Positions 10,118-26,402 of a stretch of 64,000 nucleotides of DNA are shown one piece after another. This DNA is from Flavobacteriales bacterium (lineage in GTDB: Bacteria > Bacteroidota > Bacteroidia > Flavobacteriales_D > Sanyastnellaceae): the NCBI GenBank assembly GCA_019694805.1, contig JAIBBG010000007.1, forward strand, positions 1 through 64,000, read 5' to 3'. The first letter of the stretch is position 1; every line of letters starts with the position of its first letter. The notes below the pieces were generated by a model. That model was given only the letters and a program-made list of their open reading frames with translations. It had not been told where the DNA came from and searched no databases. The position numbers and the translations under genes were made by a program.

Positions 10118-10121
10118 GAAA

Positions 10122-10231
<110 letters not shown>

Positions 10232-10239
10232 AAAAGTTA

Positions 10240-10255
10240 ATGTACTGATAGAGTT
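10240..10255 (-). other. 23S processing stem, 3' arm
   Basis: The sequence ATGTACTGATAGAGTT on the plus strand is the exact reverse complement of 13044-13059, on the other side of 23S. In the transcript the two arms make a 16-bp helix enclosing the 23S gene. This is the usual arrangement for an RNase III cut site in pre-23S rRNA. Confidence 0.75.
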
Positions 10256-10261
10256 CTTAAT

Positions 10262-13040
<2,779 letters not shown>

Positions 13041-13043
13041 TTA

Positions 13044-13059
13044 AACTCTATCAGTACAT
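13044..13059 (-). other. 23S processing stem, 5' arm
   Basis: The sequence AACTCTATCAGTACAT on the plus strand pairs perfectly with 10240-10255. It sits directly between the boxA-like site and the start of 23S. Confidence 0.75.
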
Positions 13060-13069
13060 CAAAGAACTT
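13059..13069 (-). promoter_or_regulatory. boxA-like antitermination site in the 16S-23S spacer
   Basis: The minus strand reads AAGTTCTTTGA. This resembles the bacterial rRNA boxA (NusB/NusE-binding) element and repeats the site in the 16S leader (15083-15094). It lies just upstream of the 23S processing stem, where a second boxA is commonly found. Assigned by similarity and position only. Confidence 0.55.
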
Positions 13070-13129
13070 GTTAGAACCGATTTCTAAGTTCGGTTCAACA
13101 CTGTAATTGTTTTCACAATACAGCAGCTG

Positions 13130-13201
13130 TGGAGAATTGTGGATTTGAACCACTTCCTTTTCAACACAAGGTTGAAATGCTCTTCCATTGAGCTATTTCC
13201 C
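13130..13201 (-). pseudogene. Degenerate tRNA-like element in the rRNA spacer
   Basis: The minus strand gives GGGAAATAGCTC at the 5' side, a D-arm-like GCTCAATGGAAGAGC, a T-arm-like GTGGTTCAAATCCAC, and a 3' acceptor strand ATTCTCCA identical to that of the neighbouring tRNA-Ala. The fold is abnormal. The acceptor has an A-C mismatch, only one base separates it from the D stem, and the anticodon arm is a 7-bp stem TTTCAAC/GTTGAAA closed by five bases (CTTGT) instead of a 7-base loop with U33. No anticodon can be read with confidence. It is best seen as a tRNA relic or a processing element. Confidence 0.55.
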
Positions 13202-13245
13202 AAATAAATTTCAAATTAAATCTCTACACATTTGTTGAGATGGAG

Positions 13246-13319
13246 TGGAGAATAACGGATTCGAACCGTTGACCCCCTGCGTGCAAGGCAGGTGCTCTAG
13301 CCAGCTGAGCTAATTCCCC
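13246..13319 (-). tRNA. tRNA-Ala(TGC)
   Basis: The cloverleaf is complete on the minus strand. The acceptor GGGGAAT pairs with ATTCTCC, the D arm is normal, the anticodon stem CCTGC/GCAGG encloses CTTGCAC (anticodon TGC), and the T arm ACGG TTCGAAT CCGT is intact. CCA is not encoded directly after the discriminator A. It is the second tRNA in the 16S-23S spacer. Confidence 0.95.
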
Positions 13320-13367
13320 ATTTTAGATTCAGGTATGCAGCAGTATGATCATGCTAGCCCTGATTTG

Positions 13368-13441
13368 TAGTCCTGAGCAGATTTGAACTGCTGACCCCTA
13401 CATTATCAGTGTAGTGCTCTAACCAACTGAGCTACAGGACT
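13368..13441 (-). tRNA. tRNA-Ile(GAT)
   Basis: The cloverleaf is complete on the minus strand. The acceptor AGTCCTG pairs with CAGGACT, the anticodon loop is CTGATAA (anticodon GAT), and the T arm is AGCAG TTCAAAT CTGCT. It is the first spacer tRNA after 16S, in the usual Ile-Ala order. Confidence 0.95.
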
Positions 13442-13454
13442 GAAAATAAAATGG

Positions 13455-13490
13455 TAATGCAGAACGAACAGGAATTGCTTCTAAGAAGCA
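13455..13490 (-). other. 16S processing stem, 3' arm
   Basis: This segment, just after 16S, is largely complementary to 15044-15081, just before 16S. The paired blocks include CTTCTTAGAA, CTGTTCG and TGCATTA with only short mismatches between. The two should form a helix of about 35 bp around the 16S gene for RNase III processing. Confidence 0.65.
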
Positions 13491-13498
13491 TACTCTAT

Positions 13499-15027
<1,529 letters not shown>

Positions 15028-16920: not shown

Positions 16921-19900
16921 ATGATGAATATTTTCAACCAAAAATCCCTCCACCTCATAGCATTGATCATGCTTACAGGTGTGATGTCACGTGCACAGTC
17001 GTACAACGTGGACATTAACATGACGCCGGAACAGATGATTCAAAATCTGGTCGGACCCGGTGTTACCATTTCAAACGTTGTAGTTACTGCATGTGATAGC
17101 ACTTACGGTTATTACACATCCAATGGAACAGAAATTGGCTCGAATCAGGGGCTTCTGCTTACCACAGGTAAAGCGCTTTATTCTGTTGGCCCGAACAACA
17201 CCATTGGTAACTGTTCAACGAGTCAGGGCACTTGCGATTATTTCGACAATGACTGTCCCGGCAGCACGCTGCTCAATCAGGCTCAAGACAGAACAACCTA
17301 TGACGCCACGATGTTCGAATTTGACATCGTGCCCCAAGGTGATTCACTTCGTTTCAATTATACTTTCGCATCTGAGGAATATAATGAATGGGTGAACTCT
17401 CCATTTAACGACGTATTCGGCTTTTATATCAGTGGTCCGAATGTCGGAACGGATGTAAACATTGCGTTGATTCCAAATACAGCGCAGGTTGTAGCCATCA
17501 ACACTGTAAACGCGTTATCGAATTCTTCATACTTCTATAATAATCAAAATCCCCTCGGACAATTCATCCAATATGATGGATTTACTGTTGGACTTTATGC
17601 TGCGGTAGGTAACCTCATCCCTTGTGAAACTTATCACCTCAAATTGGTCATTGCCGATGGAACTGATCACGTTTACGATTCAGGTGTATTCATCAATGCG
17701 ATTGAATCGAATCCGATAGTAGTTCTGACAGCCACATCAAATGGACTTGATTACATGGTTGAAGGCTGTAACACCGGTACGATTTCGTTTTCAAGAAGTG
17801 TAGTAACACCAGAACCACAGGACGTTCTCTTTTGGATCGGTGGTTCAGCTACAAATGGTGTAGATTATTCACCACAAATTGGAAGTGGTATCCCATTGGA
17901 TTTGAACAGCATTACAATACCAGCCAATTCGCAAACAGTTTCATTCGACATCAGTGCTGCTTTGGACAATATTGATGAGGGCCAGGAGTATATCACGATA
18001 TATCTTGGAAACCCATTGTGTTCAGGGAATCAAGTGCTGGATAGTGTAAATTTCTACATCTACGATTTCCTTGATTTGGATCTGACTCCTGATGTTTCTT
18101 CCATTTGCGCAGGGCAATGCGTAGACCTCATTGCCAACAGCAACGCTAGCGATTTGGCTGACTTCGTATGGTCACCAAACGTTGTCAATTCGACTGACAC
18201 TACAGCACAGGTTTGTCCAACTGAGACAAGTACTTATACAATTACCGCAACCGTTGGAGAATGTGTTGTTTCAGATGAAGTAGTTGTGAATGTTTCAAGC
18301 ATTACGCTTGAATTAACCGGCACTGACATCAATTGTGAAGGTGGAACAACTGGAAGCATCACCGTTACTGTAAACGATGGTTTAGCACCATATACCTATT
18401 CTTGGACAGGGCCAGATGGTTTTACCAGCACAGATTCCATTCCAACTGATTTACTACCTGGAGAATATTGTGTTGAGGTAACCGATGCGGCTGGTTGTGT
18501 TGCAACAGGCTGCATTACATTGGTTCAAACCAATGAACTCACCGCCACTTCCGAATTGTCGGACTATAACTGTTCTATGGTATCATGTTTTGGATCTTGT
18601 GATGGAAGCATTGATATCACCACCTCAGGCGGTGTTGAACCATTTGCATATAGCTGGACCGGTGCTAACGGTTTCGCTGCAATTACTGAAGACATTGCCG
18701 ATTTGTGTGCGGGTACATATGAACTCACCATCACTGATGACGTTGGTTGTCAATACACGAATAGCTACACCCTCACAGAACCAGATAGCCTCACACTGGA
18801 GGTTATCGGCTCTACAGACTTGCTCTGTACTGGTGTAGAAACAGGTGAAGCAAGCGTTCAGGCAACAGGTGGTTGTCCTGTTTACACCTATATCTGGAGC
18901 CATGATGCTGCAGTAACAGGTCCAGTGGCAACGAATCTTGGAAGTGGTACTTATGAAGTGAGTGTTACAGACCAAAATGGCTGTAGCAATGATGGATTCG
19001 TGACGATTGTGATCAACGATCCTATCGATCCACTTAACGTTACTGTCGATGAAATTTCCATCTATCCGGGCGGTTATTCTGTAAGTTGCCCTGGTGCTGA
19101 AGATGGATACATCAATATTACCATCGCAGGCGGTTTGCTTCCTTATACCAGCACTTGGCAGAACACAACGACAGGTTTAATTTACAATACCGAAGATTTG
19201 TCTGCAGCTCCTTGCGGAGAATACTCATTGGTTGTTCTTGATGGCAACGGATGTATCTTCACTCAATCGCTACAGCTTACATGCGTTCCCGAGATAGACG
19301 TTGAATTAGACGTAACGGATAACCCATGTGGTGAGCCAGATCTCGGAGCTGGAGCCATTGATGTCATTAGCACTTCGGGTGGTCAGGGAATTCCTTATAC
19401 TTACGTGTGGAATGGTCCGAGCTGCAGTCCTTGCAATACTCAGAACATCTCAAACCTGATTTCAGGAGATTATGTACTTACAGTAACGGATGCACAAGGA
19501 TGCGCAGCTGAGTTCACAGCCAATATTGGACAGAACGATGCATTTGAGGCCGATGCAACCGTAACACAGCCAACTTGCGCTGGAAGTTGTGACGGCGAAA
19601 TCAATATCGCCATTACAAGCGCCGGCGGTGGCGGTGGCGGCGGTGGCGATGCCTTCCTCGTGAATTCATCTACACAAATGACTTTCTGCTTCACCGGAAC
19701 ACATAGTTGGGTTTCGGATATTTCCTTTAAACTCATTGGTCCGGCTGGATGCGGAAGTCCTGAAGTCATGTTATCTGCACACCCTCTCAGTATCGGTCAA
19801 CCGGCTAACTGTAACAGCGGAAATGACTTCTCAAACCTTTGTTTTTCTACTGAAACATCAAACAATCTCAATGTGTGCGCTGCGGCAGTTCCGTTGAGTG

Positions 19901-22900
19901 GTACATATGGTACATATGGCACGGCAGTTATTCCTATTGATTGGGATGCACTCAATGGTTGCGATGTGAATGAAGCAGGTTGGGAATTGCGTGTTCAGGA
20001 TTGTGTTCTCACCGATTTTGGAGCATTGACTGGTGCAACGTTTAGCTTCGATGGCACCGATACCGGCGGCAATCCTGCGAGTGTCACTTATAGTAGCCCC
20101 GTTGGATATAGTTCAGCCATCAATAACCCTCCAGTACAAGGATGTGATCCAGCCGTATTTGGTTCTTTCATCGTTGATGAAAGCATGGTTAGCGGCGGAG
20201 GCGGCGGTAATTCGGGCGATTATAACTTCTCATGGACAGGTCCGAATGGCTTTGTTTCTTCATCAGAAGATCTAACAGGCCTTTGTCCCGGAACATACAC
20301 TGTGACTATTACTTCGGGCACTTGTGAGCAAACCCTCAGCTTTGATATCGTTGATCCAGCTGCTCTTGAAGTAGTTGAAGTTGATGTTACAAATCCTGTT
20401 TGCTTTGGTCAAAACAACGGTTGTATCGACATTGATGTGATCAATGGTTCAGGTAACTACACCTACAACTGGATACCTTCACCATCATGCTTCTTCTTCG
20501 GAGCAAACACCCAAGATATCTGCAACCTTTTTGAGTGCACATACAACTACTCCATTACTGACGTTGCAACTGGTTGTAATATCACAGGAGCTATTGAACT
20601 TGTGGCACCGCAAGTGATGGAAATTGTGATCGTAACATCTGAGTTTGATGGCGGATACAACATCAGTTGCCAGGGCGCGAATGATGGTCAGATTTCTGTC
20701 TTCGTAACTGGCGGTTCACCAGATTGCACCCAATTTGCTCCTTATTGTTACCAATACGACTGGATCACGGATTGCTCGGAAATCGATCCAAGTTTATATG
20801 GCAACGACCCGAATGGATCCAATATGGCTAACCTTCCAGGTGGTACATATGGTGTCAATGTTTATGATTCGAATGGATGTCTCGCGACAACCTGTCTCGA
20901 TTTGATTGAACCAGATTCCATCCAGTCACCAGCTCTGATTGAAAACATCGACTGTAACAATACTTCGGGTTGTATTACCCCAAACCTTACTGGTGGAAGT
21001 GGTCTGTACATTATTTATGAATGGACAGGCGACATTGGTTCGAATAACCCCGATGCAGCAACACTCTGTGGATTGGCTGCAGGTAACTATTCACTGACTG
21101 TAACTGATTCTAACAACTGTGAAGACACTTTTGAATATGAAATTACGGAAATACCACAATTGACAGCGACTGTCGTATCTACTACAGATGCTTCATGTTA
21201 TGGTGCATGCGACGGTGAAGCCGAAGTACTTCTCGAAGGAGGTGAAGCGCCGATCACGTGCACACTTACAGGTGGTACACTGCCGAGTCCAGTTGTTTTC
21301 ACTGATTTGCCACTTGGAAATATGGTGATACCAAATCTTTGTGCAGGTGATTACAGCATGACCCATGAAGACGCGAACGGCTGTGTTGCTACAAGTAACT
21401 TTGTAATCAACCAACCAGATTCTATTGTGATTGACTTGGTTTCAGTCATTCAGGAAGCCGGTCAGATTTTCGATCTGCAATGTCTTGGTGATTCATCGGG
21501 TGCAGTGAATGCAACCATCACTGGTGGTACATTCCCTTACACCTATATCTGGACCAATGAATTGTTGGAAATCATTGGTAGCGATGAGGACATCGATTCG
21601 CTTAAAGCTGGCACATATTGCCTCACCATTTTGGATGCTCATGGCTGTTCAGGTCAGACATGCATCACATTGACAGAACCTACCGAAGCACTTACAGCAA
21701 GCGGTGAAGTTTCAATTTACAACGAGATCTACAATATCTCATGCTACAATGAAACAGATGGATGGATTGATATTACTGTCAATGGCGGCGTTCCTGGATA
21801 TATTTTTGAATGGAACGGCGATGGAACCATCAACAATGTAGAAGATCAAAATGATCTTGGAGCAGGCACATACGATGTTCTTGTTATCGATGCCAACTTC
21901 TGTACAACCTTATTAGAATTTGAATTGATCGAGCCAACACCAATCACTGTTGACGCCACCATCTCATTATTTGACGGTGGTTACAACGTTAGCTGTAATG
22001 GTGTTTGCGACGGCTTTATCACCACAACCATCAGTGGTGGAAATCCAGGATATACCATTTCATGGACTGGACCAAACGGGTTCACCAGCACAGAAGAAAG
22101 CTTAACTGATCTCTGCGGTGGTACCTACACGATCACAGTAACTGACGCCAATAATTGCAGTATTTCTCAAAGCTTTACACTCACTCAACCATCAACTCTG
22201 ACGGTTGAAATCAACGACAGTCCTAACTGCTCGACTGGTAATGTTGACTTGTGTGCAACAGTAACTGGCGGAAGTGGAAACTACAGCTATAGTTGGAGCA
22301 ATAGCTCAACCAGCGCCTGCACAGTGGTTACACAGGATGGTCAGGTTTGCGTTACTGTAACCGATTCCAACGGATGTACTGCAGAAGTATGTATGGATAT
22401 CGATGTTGAAGCACCACTTGATGTAGATGGCGCTGTGACAAACACATCCTGCGGCCTTTGCATTGGTGCGATAGATTTGACTATTACAGGAGGGTTTGAA
22501 CCATACATCATCACTTGGGCTGGTGGCGGCAATGCTGAAGATCTCACAGACCTTTGTGCAGGTACTTACTCTGTCACTGTAACAGATGCATCAGGTTGTT
22601 CTATCGAGCAGACTTTCACTATTCTGGATACACCAGGTGTTACTATCACAACACAACAACAAAATGTTGCATGTAATGGTGGCGCAACTGGATCAGCTAC
22701 AGCGTTAATTACTGGTGGTACTCAACCTTACGACATCGTTTGGACAGATGCTCAATTCAATCAGATTGGCACTGGGTCAAGTGTTGAGGGTCTTGCAGCA
22801 GGTGTTTACACTGTAACGGTTACAGATGCGAATGATTGCGGAGGAAGTGCGATTGTAACGATCACTGAAGCACCAGGATTGGTCATTGACGATGTTGAAG

Positions 22901-23388
22901 TAAGTGTTTATGGAAATTACAACATCAGTTCACCAGGAGGTGAAGATGGAACAATCCACGTTGAGGTTATTGGTGGAACACCACAGTATACCTACACATG
23001 GACACCTGAAGGATTGCCGGCAGAACATGAAATCACTGGATTGTCAGAAGGTGATTACACCATTACTGTAACCGATGCCAATGGCTGTACAGTTGATTCA
23101 ACGATCACTTTAACTGCACCAAGAGAATTCGCCATCTATACGGCACTTTCACCTAATGGTGATGGCTTCAACGATGCTTATGTCATTGATGGTGCGGAAT
23201 ATTGCCCGGGCAACCAGTTCAAGGTGTTTAACCGCTGGGGTAATCTCGTGTATGAGAAGAACAACTATTACAACCAATGGTATGGTCAGGATAAAGACAA
23301 TGCTCCATTGGCTGATGGTACATACTTCGTGATTTTCGAAGGATGTAATAAAGAAGTAAGTACTTATGTAGATCTCAGGAGGGAATAA
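16921..23388 (+). CDS. SprB-like giant T9SS adhesin: choice-of-anchor L, SprB repeats, P-domain-like insert, type B CTD
   Basis: The 2155-residue protein has a signal peptide (to about 25). A choice-of-anchor L domain follows (about 30-260; TFASEEYNEWVNSPFNDVFGF motif), then a Calx-beta-like module (about 262-380). Many SprB/PKD-like repeats come next, with the signature Y.WTGPNGF...L..L..GTY.VTVTDANGC. At residues about 910-1090, flanked by two Gly-rich linkers, lies a segment resembling a proprotein-convertase P domain. The C-terminus is a CHU_C type B sorting domain (LSPNGDGFNDAY, VFNRWGNLVYE). By analogy with SprB of Flavobacterium it is probably a T9SS-exported, cell-surface adhesin that could work in gliding or attachment. 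The next gene, 2 bp away, is its PorP/SprF partner. Confidence 0.9.
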   Translation: MMNIFNQKSLHLIALIMLTGVMSRAQSYNVDINMTPEQMIQNLVGPGVTISNVVVTACDSTYGYYTSNGTEIGSNQGLLLTTGKALYSVGPNNTIGNCSTSQGTCDYFDNDCPGSTLLNQAQDRTTYDATMFEFDIVPQGDSLRFNYTFASEEYNEWVNSPFNDVFGFYISGPNVGTDVNIALIPNTAQVVAINTVNALSNSSYFYNNQNPLGQFIQYDGFTVGLYAAVGNLIPCETYHLKLVIADGTDHVYDSGVFINAIESNPIVVLTATSNGLDYMVEGCNTGTISFSRSVVTPEPQDVLFWIGGSATNGVDYSPQIGSGIPLDLNSITIPANSQTVSFDISAALDNIDEGQEYITIYLGNPLCSGNQVLDSVNFYIYDFLDLDLTPDVSSICAGQCVDLIANSNASDLADFVWSPNVVNSTDTTAQVCPTETSTYTITATVGECVVSDEVVVNVSSITLELTGTDINCEGGTTGSITVTVNDGLAPYTYSWTGPDGFTSTDSIPTDLLPGEYCVEVTDAAGCVATGCITLVQTNELTATSELSDYNCSMVSCFGSCDGSIDITTSGGVEPFAYSWTGANGFAAITEDIADLCAGTYELTITDDVGCQYTNSYTLTEPDSLTLEVIGSTDLLCTGVETGEASVQATGGCPVYTYIWSHDAAVTGPVATNLGSGTYEVSVTDQNGCSNDGFVTIVINDPIDPLNVTVDEISIYPGGYSVSCPGAEDGYINITIAGGLLPYTSTWQNTTTGLIYNTEDLSAAPCGEYSLVVLDGNGCIFTQSLQLTCVPEIDVELDVTDNPCGEPDLGAGAIDVISTSGGQGIPYTYVWNGPSCSPCNTQNISNLISGDYVLTVTDAQGCAAEFTANIGQNDAFEADATVTQPTCAGSCDGEINIAITSAGGGGGGGGDAFLVNSSTQMTFCFTGTHSWVSDISFKLIGPAGCGSPEVMLSAHPLSIGQPANCNSGNDFSNLCFSTETSNNLNVCAAAVPLSGTYGTYGTAVIPIDWDALNGCDVNEAGWELRVQDCVLTDFGALTGATFSFDGTDTGGNPASVTYSSPVGYSSAINNPPVQGCDPAVFGSFIVDESMVSGGGGGNSGDYNFSWTGPNGFVSSSEDLTGLCPGTYTVTITSGTCEQTLSFDIVDPAALEVVEVDVTNPVCFGQNNGCIDIDVINGSGNYTYNWIPSPSCFFFGANTQDICNLFECTYNYSITDVATGCNITGAIELVAPQVMEIVIVTSEFDGGYNISCQGANDGQISVFVTGGSPDCTQFAPYCYQYDWITDCSEIDPSLYGNDPNGSNMANLPGGTYGVNVYDSNGCLATTCLDLIEPDSIQSPALIENIDCNNTSGCITPNLTGGSGLYIIYEWTGDIGSNNPDAATLCGLAAGNYSLTVTDSNNCEDTFEYEITEIPQLTATVVSTTDASCYGACDGEAEVLLEGGEAPITCTLTGGTLPSPVVFTDLPLGNMVIPNLCAGDYSMTHEDANGCVATSNFVINQPDSIVIDLVSVIQEAGQIFDLQCLGDSSGAVNATITGGTFPYTYIWTNELLEIIGSDEDIDSLKAGTYCLTILDAHGCSGQTCITLTEPTEALTASGEVSIYNEIYNISCYNETDGWIDITVNGGVPGYIFEWNGDGTINNVEDQNDLGAGTYDVLVIDANFCTTLLEFELIEPTPITVDATISLFDGGYNVSCNGVCDGFITTTISGGNPGYTISWTGPNGFTSTEESLTDLCGGTYTITVTDANNCSISQSFTLTQPSTLTVEINDSPNCSTGNVDLCATVTGGSGNYSYSWSNSSTSACTVVTQDGQVCVTVTDSNGCTAEVCMDIDVEAPLDVDGAVTNTSCGLCIGAIDLTITGGFEPYIITWAGGGNAEDLTDLCAGTYSVTVTDASGCSIEQTFTILDTPGVTITTQQQNVACNGGATGSATALITGGTQPYDIVWTDAQFNQIGTGSSVEGLAAGVYTVTVTDANDCGGSAIVTITEAPGLVIDDVEVSVYGNYNISSPGGEDGTIHVEVIGGTPQYTYTWTPEGLPAEHEITGLSEGDYTITVTDANGCTVDSTITLTAPREFAIYTALSPNGDGFNDAYVIDGAEYCPGNQFKVFNRWGNLVYEKNNYYNQWYGQDKDNAPLADGTYFVIFEGCNKEVSTYVDLRRE

Positions 23389-23390
23389 TC

Positions 23391-24362
23391 ATGAAAACAA
23401 ACTTCAAAAACATCCCATTCACAAAAAAGACATCCGGAACAATGAAAAAATATATAGCCATATTCATTCTGATGATCAGCTTCGTTGCTGCCAAATCGCA
23501 ACAGGAAATCATGATCAGCCAGTACATGTTCAATGGACTTGTACTCAACCCGGCCTATGCCGGAACCCATCCCTATTGGAGCGGTAGCATCCTGCATCGC
23601 AGCCAATGGGTGAAGTTTGATAAAGCCCCTAAAACACAGACACTTTGTTTAGACGGTCCAATTGCCAATGGCAAGCTTGGCGTTGGGTTGAACCTCAGCA
23701 ATGATGCATTAGGTATCACCAATCAATTGGACATCGGTGGAAACGTAGCCGGAAGAGTTTCTTTAGGTGCTGGTTTCCTCAGTGCTGGTATCAGACTGGG
23801 TGTGACACGTTATAGCGCCAACCTTACTGATGCTATCATCCGTGATTCAGAAGATCCGGTTTATGCTCAAAACATCAAAGGCGCTATGGTACCACGTTTA
23901 GGTATGGGCTTGTATTACTACCAACGCAATTGGTTCGCTGGTGTTTCTATTCCTTCTCTTCTCGCTGCTGACTCTAAAATCAGCAACTACAGCGATGGAA
24001 TGAACAGCTTTTACAAATCGCACGTTTACATCAACGGAGGATTCGTTTTCGAACCATCTCCTGAAGTTGCCATTAAGCCAAGTGTTTTGTTGAAAGTACA
24101 AGGAAGCGCGCCTGTAGAACTTGACTTGAATTGCAATGCCCTTTTCCTCAATAAATTTTGGATTGGTGCAGGCTACAGGACAGGTGATGCTATGATAGCG
24201 ATGGCAGAATGGAACATAACACATCAGCTTCGCATCGGTTATGCTTTTGATTACACATTAACGTCCATTTCAAACTACAGCAGTAATTCACATGAAGTGA
24301 TGTTGGGATACGATTTTGGAAAAGACGTAGATCTAAAAGCCCGTTCGCCACGTTATTTCTAA
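23391..24362 (+). CDS. PorP/SprF family type IX secretion membrane protein
   Basis: The 323-residue outer-membrane beta-barrel protein has the motif QYMFNGLVLNPAYAGTHPYW near the N-terminus and closes on SPRYF. The first ATG lies 2 bp after the adhesin stop and has a good SD-like AGGAGG inside the end of the upstream gene, suggesting translational coupling. An alternative ATG at 23442 would give a tighter signal peptide (MKKYIAIFILMISFVAAKSQ), so the true start is uncertain. Its position between the SprB-like adhesin and the PorE-like lipoprotein points to a role in export or anchoring of the adhesin. Confidence 0.9.
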   Translation: MKTNFKNIPFTKKTSGTMKKYIAIFILMISFVAAKSQQEIMISQYMFNGLVLNPAYAGTHPYWSGSILHRSQWVKFDKAPKTQTLCLDGPIANGKLGVGLNLSNDALGITNQLDIGGNVAGRVSLGAGFLSAGIRLGVTRYSANLTDAIIRDSEDPVYAQNIKGAMVPRLGMGLYYYQRNWFAGVSIPSLLAADSKISNYSDGMNSFYKSHVYINGGFVFEPSPEVAIKPSVLLKVQGSAPVELDLNCNALFLNKFWIGAGYRTGDAMIAMAEWNITHQLRIGYAFDYTLTSISNYSSNSHEVMLGYDFGKDVDLKARSPRYF

Positions 24363-24404: not shown

Positions 24405-26402
24405 ATGAAAAAAAGCATTCAAATCACCCAACTACTGGCTCTGCTTATTTCAGCAATGATGCTGGCTAGTTGTGCGTCTCTTTATATTCAGAATGGAAAA
24501 GAAGCATATGATAACCTTAAGTATCACGATGCCATTTATTATCTGAATAAAGGTGTGGCGAAAAAGCAAGATCCGGATGCCGTGAGAAAACTCGGTGAAT
24601 CGTATCTCAAGGTGAATGATTTTGAGCACGCCGCTTCGACCTATGAGCAAATCGCGACATTCACAGATAATACTGATGCCGATCGCATCAATCAAGCCAG
24701 AGCCTTGATGGGCACCGAGCGCTACAGTGAGGCCAAAACCATTCTCGAAGGCATCATCAGTCGTGATGCAGGCAATCAGGTGGCAAAAGAGCTCCTGCAA
24801 AGCTGCAAGACAGTAGATAAGATGAAAAGCGATTCCTTGCTTTACTTGGTAGAGCCTGTGAACATCCCAGTATTAGAAGCCGTTTTTTCTCCTTATCCAT
24901 TCAATGGTGGATTGATTTTCAGCAGTCCAAGCGGTAAAGGCGAAAGCGATCCTTACACGGATAAATCATACACCAACCTTTTCTTTTCGAAAAAAGAAGG
25001 TGCTTCATGGACGAATCCTGAACCATTGGAAGGTGTAAATGGACAATATCATGATGCAGTTGCAGCAGTGAGTCCATCCGGTCAGACACTTGTTTTCACC
25101 AGAAGTTTCCAATTAAACGGTGGTGCACTTGCAGGTAACGACCAGCGCGTAAGCATGACACAACTGTACACCAGCAAGATGGGCGCAGATGGTAAATGGG
25201 AAAAACCTTCATTGGTTCCATTCTGCGACAGTAAATACATGTTTGCTCACCCAGCATTTTCTCCGGACGGTAAAACGCTGTATTTCGCGTCGGATATGCC
25301 TGGAGGATTCGGTGAAATGGATATTTGGGAATCTCAACTTTCCGACAATACTTGGGGTACTCCTAAAAATTTAGGTGGTGATGTCAATTCGAAAGGAAAT
25401 GAGGTTTTCCCAACTGTGAAGGACGAAAACACTCTTTTCTTCAGCAGTGATGCACATGAAAGCTTAGGTGGATTGGATATTCTTCAATCAAGTCGTAAGA
25501 ACGGCGTTTGGGAAAATCCAGTGCATATCTCCTACCCTATCAATACATCAACAGATGATTTTGGTATGGTATGGAATGCAGATGGTAAAGGTGGTTACTT
25601 CACCAGTGACAGATATGGTTCAGATAAAATCTACAGCTTTGCATTCGATGATACCCGTGTAACGCTGAATGGCTTGGTTACGGGTAAAGACAGCATGTTG
25701 CCACTTGGTGGCGTGCGCGTGACCATCAAGAATCTCACTGATGGCACAGAACAGATGGTGATCACTGATGGTGATGGAAAATTCACTGCCGACCTGATCA
25801 AAGGCAAGGACTATCAAATGATAGCTGATCTTGAGGGCTACTTCAAACAAACCGAACCTGTCAATACCAAAACAGGAGAAAATCCTATCAGTAAGGTCAT
25901 AGAGATGAGTGAAGTCTATATCACCGACAATAAAAACGGCGAAAATGGCGGTAATGACGGTGGTAACAACGGTGGTAACAACGGTGGCAATAATGGCGGA
26001 GGCAACAATGGTGAAAACGGCAGTGGCACCGGTAAAAAAGGCGTCTATGACCTTCCTGAAATCCATTGGGATTACAACAAATGGGATATCCGACCAGACG
26101 CCGTTCCTTATCTCGACAATCTTGTGAAGCTTTTCAAAGACAATCCAGATCTGAAATTCGAACTGCGCAGCCACACCGACTGCAGAGGTAGTCATGAATA
26201 CAATGATGACCTTTCTGCGAAGCGCGCGAAAGCAGCAACAGATTACCTGGTGAAAAAAGGTGTTCCAAGAGCGATCATCGTATCTAAAGGTTATGGTGAA
26301 AGGGAACTCTTGAATGAATGCACCGATGGTGTGTTCTGTGATGAATCTAAACACGAACAAAATCGTCGTACTGAATTCATTGTAACAGGAAAGAAAAAGT
26401 AA
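24405..26402 (+). CDS. PorE-like lipoprotein: TPR, PD40 beta-propeller, carboxypeptidase-regulatory domain, OmpA
   Basis: The 665-residue protein has a lipoprotein signal (LLISAMMLASC, Cys at about 23). TPR helices follow (about 30-140), then WD40-like PD40 blades (about 150-410; FSPDGKTLYFASD and similar), a carboxypeptidase-regulatory-like domain (about 418-500; LNGLVTGKDSMLPLGGVRV), a linker of Gly/Asn repeats (about 510-545), and an OmpA peptidoglycan-binding domain (from about 551; SHTDCRG, RRTEF). The order equals that of PorE, the T9SS periplasmic lipoprotein that tethers the machinery to peptidoglycan. It ends the operon with the SprB-like adhesin and PorP/SprF. Whether it is the core PorE or a cassette-specific paralogue cannot be told here. 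Confidence 0.85.
   Translation: MKKSIQITQLLALLISAMMLASCASLYIQNGKEAYDNLKYHDAIYYLNKGVAKKQDPDAVRKLGESYLKVNDFEHAASTYEQIATFTDNTDADRINQARALMGTERYSEAKTILEGIISRDAGNQVAKELLQSCKTVDKMKSDSLLYLVEPVNIPVLEAVFSPYPFNGGLIFSSPSGKGESDPYTDKSYTNLFFSKKEGASWTNPEPLEGVNGQYHDAVAAVSPSGQTLVFTRSFQLNGGALAGNDQRVSMTQLYTSKMGADGKWEKPSLVPFCDSKYMFAHPAFSPDGKTLYFASDMPGGFGEMDIWESQLSDNTWGTPKNLGGDVNSKGNEVFPTVKDENTLFFSSDAHESLGGLDILQSSRKNGVWENPVHISYPINTSTDDFGMVWNADGKGGYFTSDRYGSDKIYSFAFDDTRVTLNGLVTGKDSMLPLGGVRVTIKNLTDGTEQMVITDGDGKFTADLIKGKDYQMIADLEGYFKQTEPVNTKTGENPISKVIEMSEVYITDNKNGENGGNDGGNNGGNNGGNNGGGNNGENGSGTGKKGVYDLPEIHWDYNKWDIRPDAVPYLDNLVKLFKDNPDLKFELRSHTDCRGSHEYNDDLSAKRAKAATDYLVKKGVPRAIIVSKGYGERELLNECTDGVFCDESKHEQNRRTEFIVTGKKK

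Follow-up and report, generated by a model that had tools for sequence, protein, structure and literature searches.

The window (the whole 64,000-nucleotide stretch of DNA that was analysed) contains, at 16921-23388 of its + strand, a gene encoding a 2155-residue surface adhesin built largely of SprB repeats and ending in a T9SS type B C-terminal signal. The gene of a PorP/SprF-family partner begins 2 bases past the adhesin stop, and the order adhesin, PorP/SprF, PorE-like OmpA lipoprotein is kept in those orthologues that lie on sufficiently long contigs. With its type B signal and its cognate PorP/SprF gene, the adhesin has the marks of a T9SS type B surface protein. The features of the locus are:

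16921-23388, + strand: surface adhesin gene; 2155 amino acids, SprB repeats, T9SS type B C-terminal signal
17032-17700, + strand: N-terminal choice-of-anchor L domain, residues 38-260 (NCBIfam NF038133, 5.4e-68)
18301-23124, + strand: SprB repeat array, ~16 units of ~80 amino acids (PF13573, 16 stretches, E 2.9e-78; the start of the first unit is approximate)
23134-23343, + strand: CHU_C/T9SS type B sorting domain, residues 2072-2141 (PF13585, 6.6e-21; TIGR04131, 2.2e-9)
23391-24362, + strand: PorP/SprF-family outer-membrane partner (PF11751, 2.5e-72; TIGR03519, 7.6e-77)
24405-26402, + strand: PorE-like/OmpA lipoprotein, the third member of the conserved gene cluster (order kept downstream of orthologues)

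The SprB repeats, the type B signal and the adjoining PorP/SprF gene are all features shared with SprB and SprF of Flavobacterium johnsoniae. In that organism a Cys-X-Cys in the C-tail of SprF couples it to the gliding track and is needed to ride it (PMC12635249). In contrast, the C-tail of the partner encoded here has no cysteine (the protein has cysteines only at 86 and 248), and the C-tail Cys-X-Cys is also absent from its orthologues. The adhesin is therefore probably static rather than gliding. A Pfam search of the entire 2155-residue protein finds no protease domain.

Elsewhere in the window (10121-15026, - strand) is a complete rRNA operon, in the order 16S-tRNA(Ile)-tRNA(Ala)-tRNA-like(Gln)-23S-5S. 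The tRNA-like(Gln) element (13129-13201), third in the spacer, is unusual in that place and has a low score (33.9 bits).

The interrupted SprB repeat

One of the SprB repeats is interrupted. An earlier note on this DNA had described the interruption as a run of eight glycines, some 180 residues of insert and a second glycine-rich stretch; the sequence and a profile made from the adhesin's own repeats bear this out, and require only that the start of the repeat be moved from 19561 to nearer 19543. The parts are as follows:

19543-19623, + strand: leading half of the split SprB repeat (residues 875-901, with strands A and B; repeat profile positions 7-26; model strands E2-9 and E19-27)
19624-19647, + strand: Gly8 linker, residues 902-909 (codons GGC GGT GGC GGT GGC GGC GGT GGC; pLDDT <50)
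19648-20190, + strand: inserted module, 181 amino acids, residues 910-1090, of a divergent cysteine-rich P-domain family (see below)
20191-20217, + strand: second Gly-rich linker, SGGGGGNSG, residues 1091-1099 (five Gly at 1092-1096; pLDDT <50 at model residues 219-225)
20218-20364, + strand: trailing half of the split SprB repeat (residues 1100-1148, from strand C on; repeat profile positions 28-79)

The insert takes the place of the short 'GG-x-P-Y' turn by which normal repeats connect strand B (GEINIAITS) to strand C (YNFSW), and the SprB repeat picks up again at DYNFSWTGPNGF after the second linker. Apart from the two linkers, the 2155-residue adhesin has no runs of four or more glycines. 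The profile, built from 15 of the adhesin's unbroken SprB repeats, fits both halves in order (positions 7-26 before the insert and 28/30-79 after it); joined, the halves score 57 bits (E 7.2e-17) against at most 11.7 bits in 1000 shuffles, and the module itself scores nothing. Against Pfam PF13573 the joined halves reach 22.2 bits (E 1.1e-4), which is below the cut-off of 28.

Nature has provided the empty site for comparison. Orthologues were sought with the repeats just upstream of the insert, which found matches in 27 of the 114 genomes of the family. The site is filled, and the insert flanked by Gly-rich stretches, in the window's genome, in five others of its genus (g1) and in one of a second genus (g19): seven genomes in two genera, and thus six orthologues besides the window's, which answers the earlier note's proposal to look in related genomes. 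In 18 orthologues from nine other genera (L169-L182, L184-L187) the repeat is unbroken, as for example in L171, which reads CDGSIEIEVAGAVADSFSWTGPDGF at the site. (In G116, of the same genus as the window's genome, the site is cut by a contig end.) Because the natural empty sites have an unbroken repeat there, the splitting of the repeat is shown. The proposal that the flanking halves constitute one split SprB repeat is thus supported at the level of sequence, by the score of the joined halves and by the 18 uninterrupted orthologues. No other inserted domains were found in the SprB repeats of the proteins that were fetched, and we know of no description of an inserted domain in SprB.

A structure was predicted with AlphaFold2 for residues 874-1152 (44 sequences). 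The model has a mean pLDDT of 86.2, with block means of ~91-98 in the P-domain core and <50 in the glycine linkers. Both repeat halves come out with the expected strands, mostly at pLDDT 78-88. The model argues for a module that folds separately from the repeat. As regards the jelly-roll fold of P-domains, the model is confident and mostly beta; Foldseek searches with two multi-domain models gave no significant match: the hits were long and misaligned, and P-domain proteases (the Aeromonas sobria protease ASP, 3wqb, and furin) figured among the weak ones only.

A branch of the P-domain family

The earlier note had also seen in the insert a likeness to the P domain of proprotein convertases, and had proposed to check it by an HMM search with the one module sequence. 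That check fails: PF01483 has no curated Pfam match to the window's own module, and single-sequence searches of Pfam, NCBIfam and the PDB return nothing beyond chance, as does a PDB search with the profile of the module family. The likeness itself survives when the family is examined. Eight of 25 family members weakly match PF01483, as do 20 of 24 in a wider homologue set (best 5.6e-7), and at least one member, L133 with 23.6 bits, is above the Pfam cut-off of 21. Aligned by hhalign with 24 true P-domains of relatives, the family profile covers module residues 8-136 with a probability of 98.3% (E 1.6e-14); against SprB repeats, as a control, it gives 0.5%. The profile of the true P-domains retrieves ASP and furin from the PDB. 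The alignment places the core of the module thus:

19669-20055, + strand: P-domain core, module residues 8-136 (hhalign to PF01483-type domains)

Module family and P-domains have in common a motif order, H..SDL....GP...L....G.Y....W...D....G.L. They differ in that the module family has several conserved cysteines, greater length and a C-terminal extension, and in that the adhesin lacks the neighbouring subtilisin-like protease domain that is usual (though not required) for P-domains such as those of furin and ASP. The P-domains of other Bacteroidota proteins that were compared also occur in Ig/PKD or tandem contexts. In favour of an unrelated beta-domain that has converged on P-domain motifs are the several conserved cysteines, which are atypical of P-domains, and the empty single-sequence searches; such a domain would hardly be expected to yield family-level matches to PF01483 in the same motif order, and the hhalign result makes convergence highly improbable. 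Since the single sequence has no Pfam match, the homology is visible at the family level only. The comparison of profiles supports the reading of the insert as a divergent P-domain, belonging to a long, cysteine-rich branch that is spread across the Bacteroidota. An uncatalogued branch of the P-domain family, common in that phylum, is now defined.

Proposed projection from the fibre and ligand binding

RTX adhesins offer the closest architectural parallel. Their ligand-binding domains are recognised by their emergence from split Ig-like domains, which pushes them off the fibre axis (PMC12077191, PMC10865825). AhLap, FrhA and MpIBP are long extender fibres of which one Ig-like domain gives rise, part-way along its chain, to a folded domain (PMC12077191, PMC10865825). 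The adhesin here shares this feature: at the sequence level, one finds the foreign domain inside a single Ig-like domain that characterises the RTX arrangement. There are also differences: the fibre here is one of SprB repeats, of the T9SS and PorP/SprF type, the inserted domain is a relative of P-domains, glycine-rich linkers connect it to its repeat, and it lies in mid-shaft rather than in a distal ligand-binding region. Long glycine linkers are not described for the RTX split domains (PMC12077191, PMC10865825). Our search of the literature turned up no paper joining a P-domain module with an SprB repeat.

The chain would leave the repeat after strand B, enter a flexible glycine linker, fold as the P-domain-like module, come back by way of the second glycine linker and only then complete the repeat, making of it a split domain. 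The glycine strings would let the module fold independently and reorient. Since the split repeat (residues 875-1148 of 2155) belongs to the first half of the adhesin and follows the choice-of-anchor L domain of its N-terminus, the module would stick out from the side of the shaft. The suggestion that it was the 'binding tip' of the adhesin finds no support: the module is ~900 residues from the N-terminus, and it is the N-terminus that bears the best-conserved domain. Held sideways off the fibre, the module may bind a ligand on a surface, be it a glycan, a protein or a polymer. A ligand-binding role is suggested because the layout is that of the RTX split domains, and by that analogy the module is most likely a ligand-binding domain projecting sideways from a split Ig-like domain.

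In proteases, the P-domain is usually considered a stabilising element. The module could accordingly be a spacer that stabilises the fibre, structurally or in dependence on calcium, or a bulky side-branch, with recognition left to the choice-of-anchor L domain, which at 82% identity among orthologues is the best-conserved region of the adhesin (the module has 45%); many orthologues, moreover, manage without the insert. A spacer leaves unexplained why a whole fold is conserved, with invariant residues, and kept in different hosts, and why it is mounted on flexible glycine strings, and we think it rather unlikely. A faster rate of evolution in the module, as a mark of ligand selection, was considered and discarded: other repeats are equally variable, and the module does not stand out as the adhesin's most variable region. 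The account that we favour, and judge somewhat better than even, is of a T9SS-secreted, PorP/SprF-anchored SprB adhesin with a divergent P-domain, a putative ligand binder, in the B-C loop of a split repeat.

To our knowledge, few ligands have been identified for SprB-type adhesins. A domain budding from a split repeat points to a place where their recognition may be sought; it would extend the split-domain rule from RTX to T9SS adhesins, and by analogy suggests that surface fibres of Bacteroidota carry binding modules in much the way known from the RTX adhesins of other bacteria. The module makes a defined construct for expression, and the sister genera supply natural empty-site controls.

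Relatives of the module in other hosts

Relatives of the module occur in 51 of the 299 genomes of the order, and the window's genome has two further, paralogous copies (54% and 47% identity). A collection of species yields 120 module stretches, from Flavobacteriales, Chitinophagaceae, Sphingobacteriaceae, Saprospirales and others. Nearly all of these relatives have the module between '..NLSGTI...YYNPPP' and a 'YxWTSxPxxxIPN' strand, and in this other host, both paralogues of the window's genome included, the module apparently occupies the loop between strands B and C of a PKD-like Ig domain. (The joined halves of this host remain below Pfam cut-offs, with weak matches to FlaF Ig-like and PKD domains.) When one paralogue was modelled within its host, its module was likewise preceded and followed by a strand. 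In L043 and L052, by eye, a split Ig/PKD-like unit encloses a true PF01483 domain, nested as in the window. Because the other hosts and these two proteins appear to share this nesting, Bacteroidota seem to have lodged P-type domains in the Ig-like B-C loop repeatedly; the variant seen here is the SprB repeat with its glycine linkers.

The tree of the host gene requires two changes of state (two separate gains, or a gain plus a loss) and does not reject a single clade of filled sites (p-AU 0.128). In the module tree the SprB-borne copies are not grouped together, and a single clade is again not rejected (p-AU 0.126). A single origin of the SprB-borne modules is thus neither demonstrated nor rejected. 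The scatter of these copies, together with the presence of two module-bearing paralogues in one genome, is what one might see if the module were a neutral passenger, copied by recombination between the Ig-like loops of paralogous surface genes. A passenger should not be so faithfully retained: the site and its Gly-rich flanks are kept in seven genomes of two genera, despite proteins at ~57% identity, with an open reading frame in all, and we regard this explanation as improbable. On the favoured reading, the module was probably acquired from relatives of this lineage, which appear to carry it in the equivalent loop of a different Ig-like host.

More tentatively, and with less than even confidence, Bacteroidota may have a general plug-in system: the B-C loop of their Ig-like units, whether SprB repeats or PKD-like domains, would be a recurrent docking site for P-domain modules, which surface proteins would exchange with one another as swappable ligand-binding heads. 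If that is true, P-domains have a role in recognition outside proteases.

Some of the other proteins are peculiar in their own right. L108 (2721 amino acids) and L109 (2796 amino acids) have two P-like module copies each, and L039 (G018:C271) has tandem P-domain matches, seven of them listed, in one frame of 1981 amino acids. The module of L115 (CP034120.1, with the title Glaciecola amylolytica, Pseudomonadota) falls deep among those of Fluviicola, and the record may be mislabelled.
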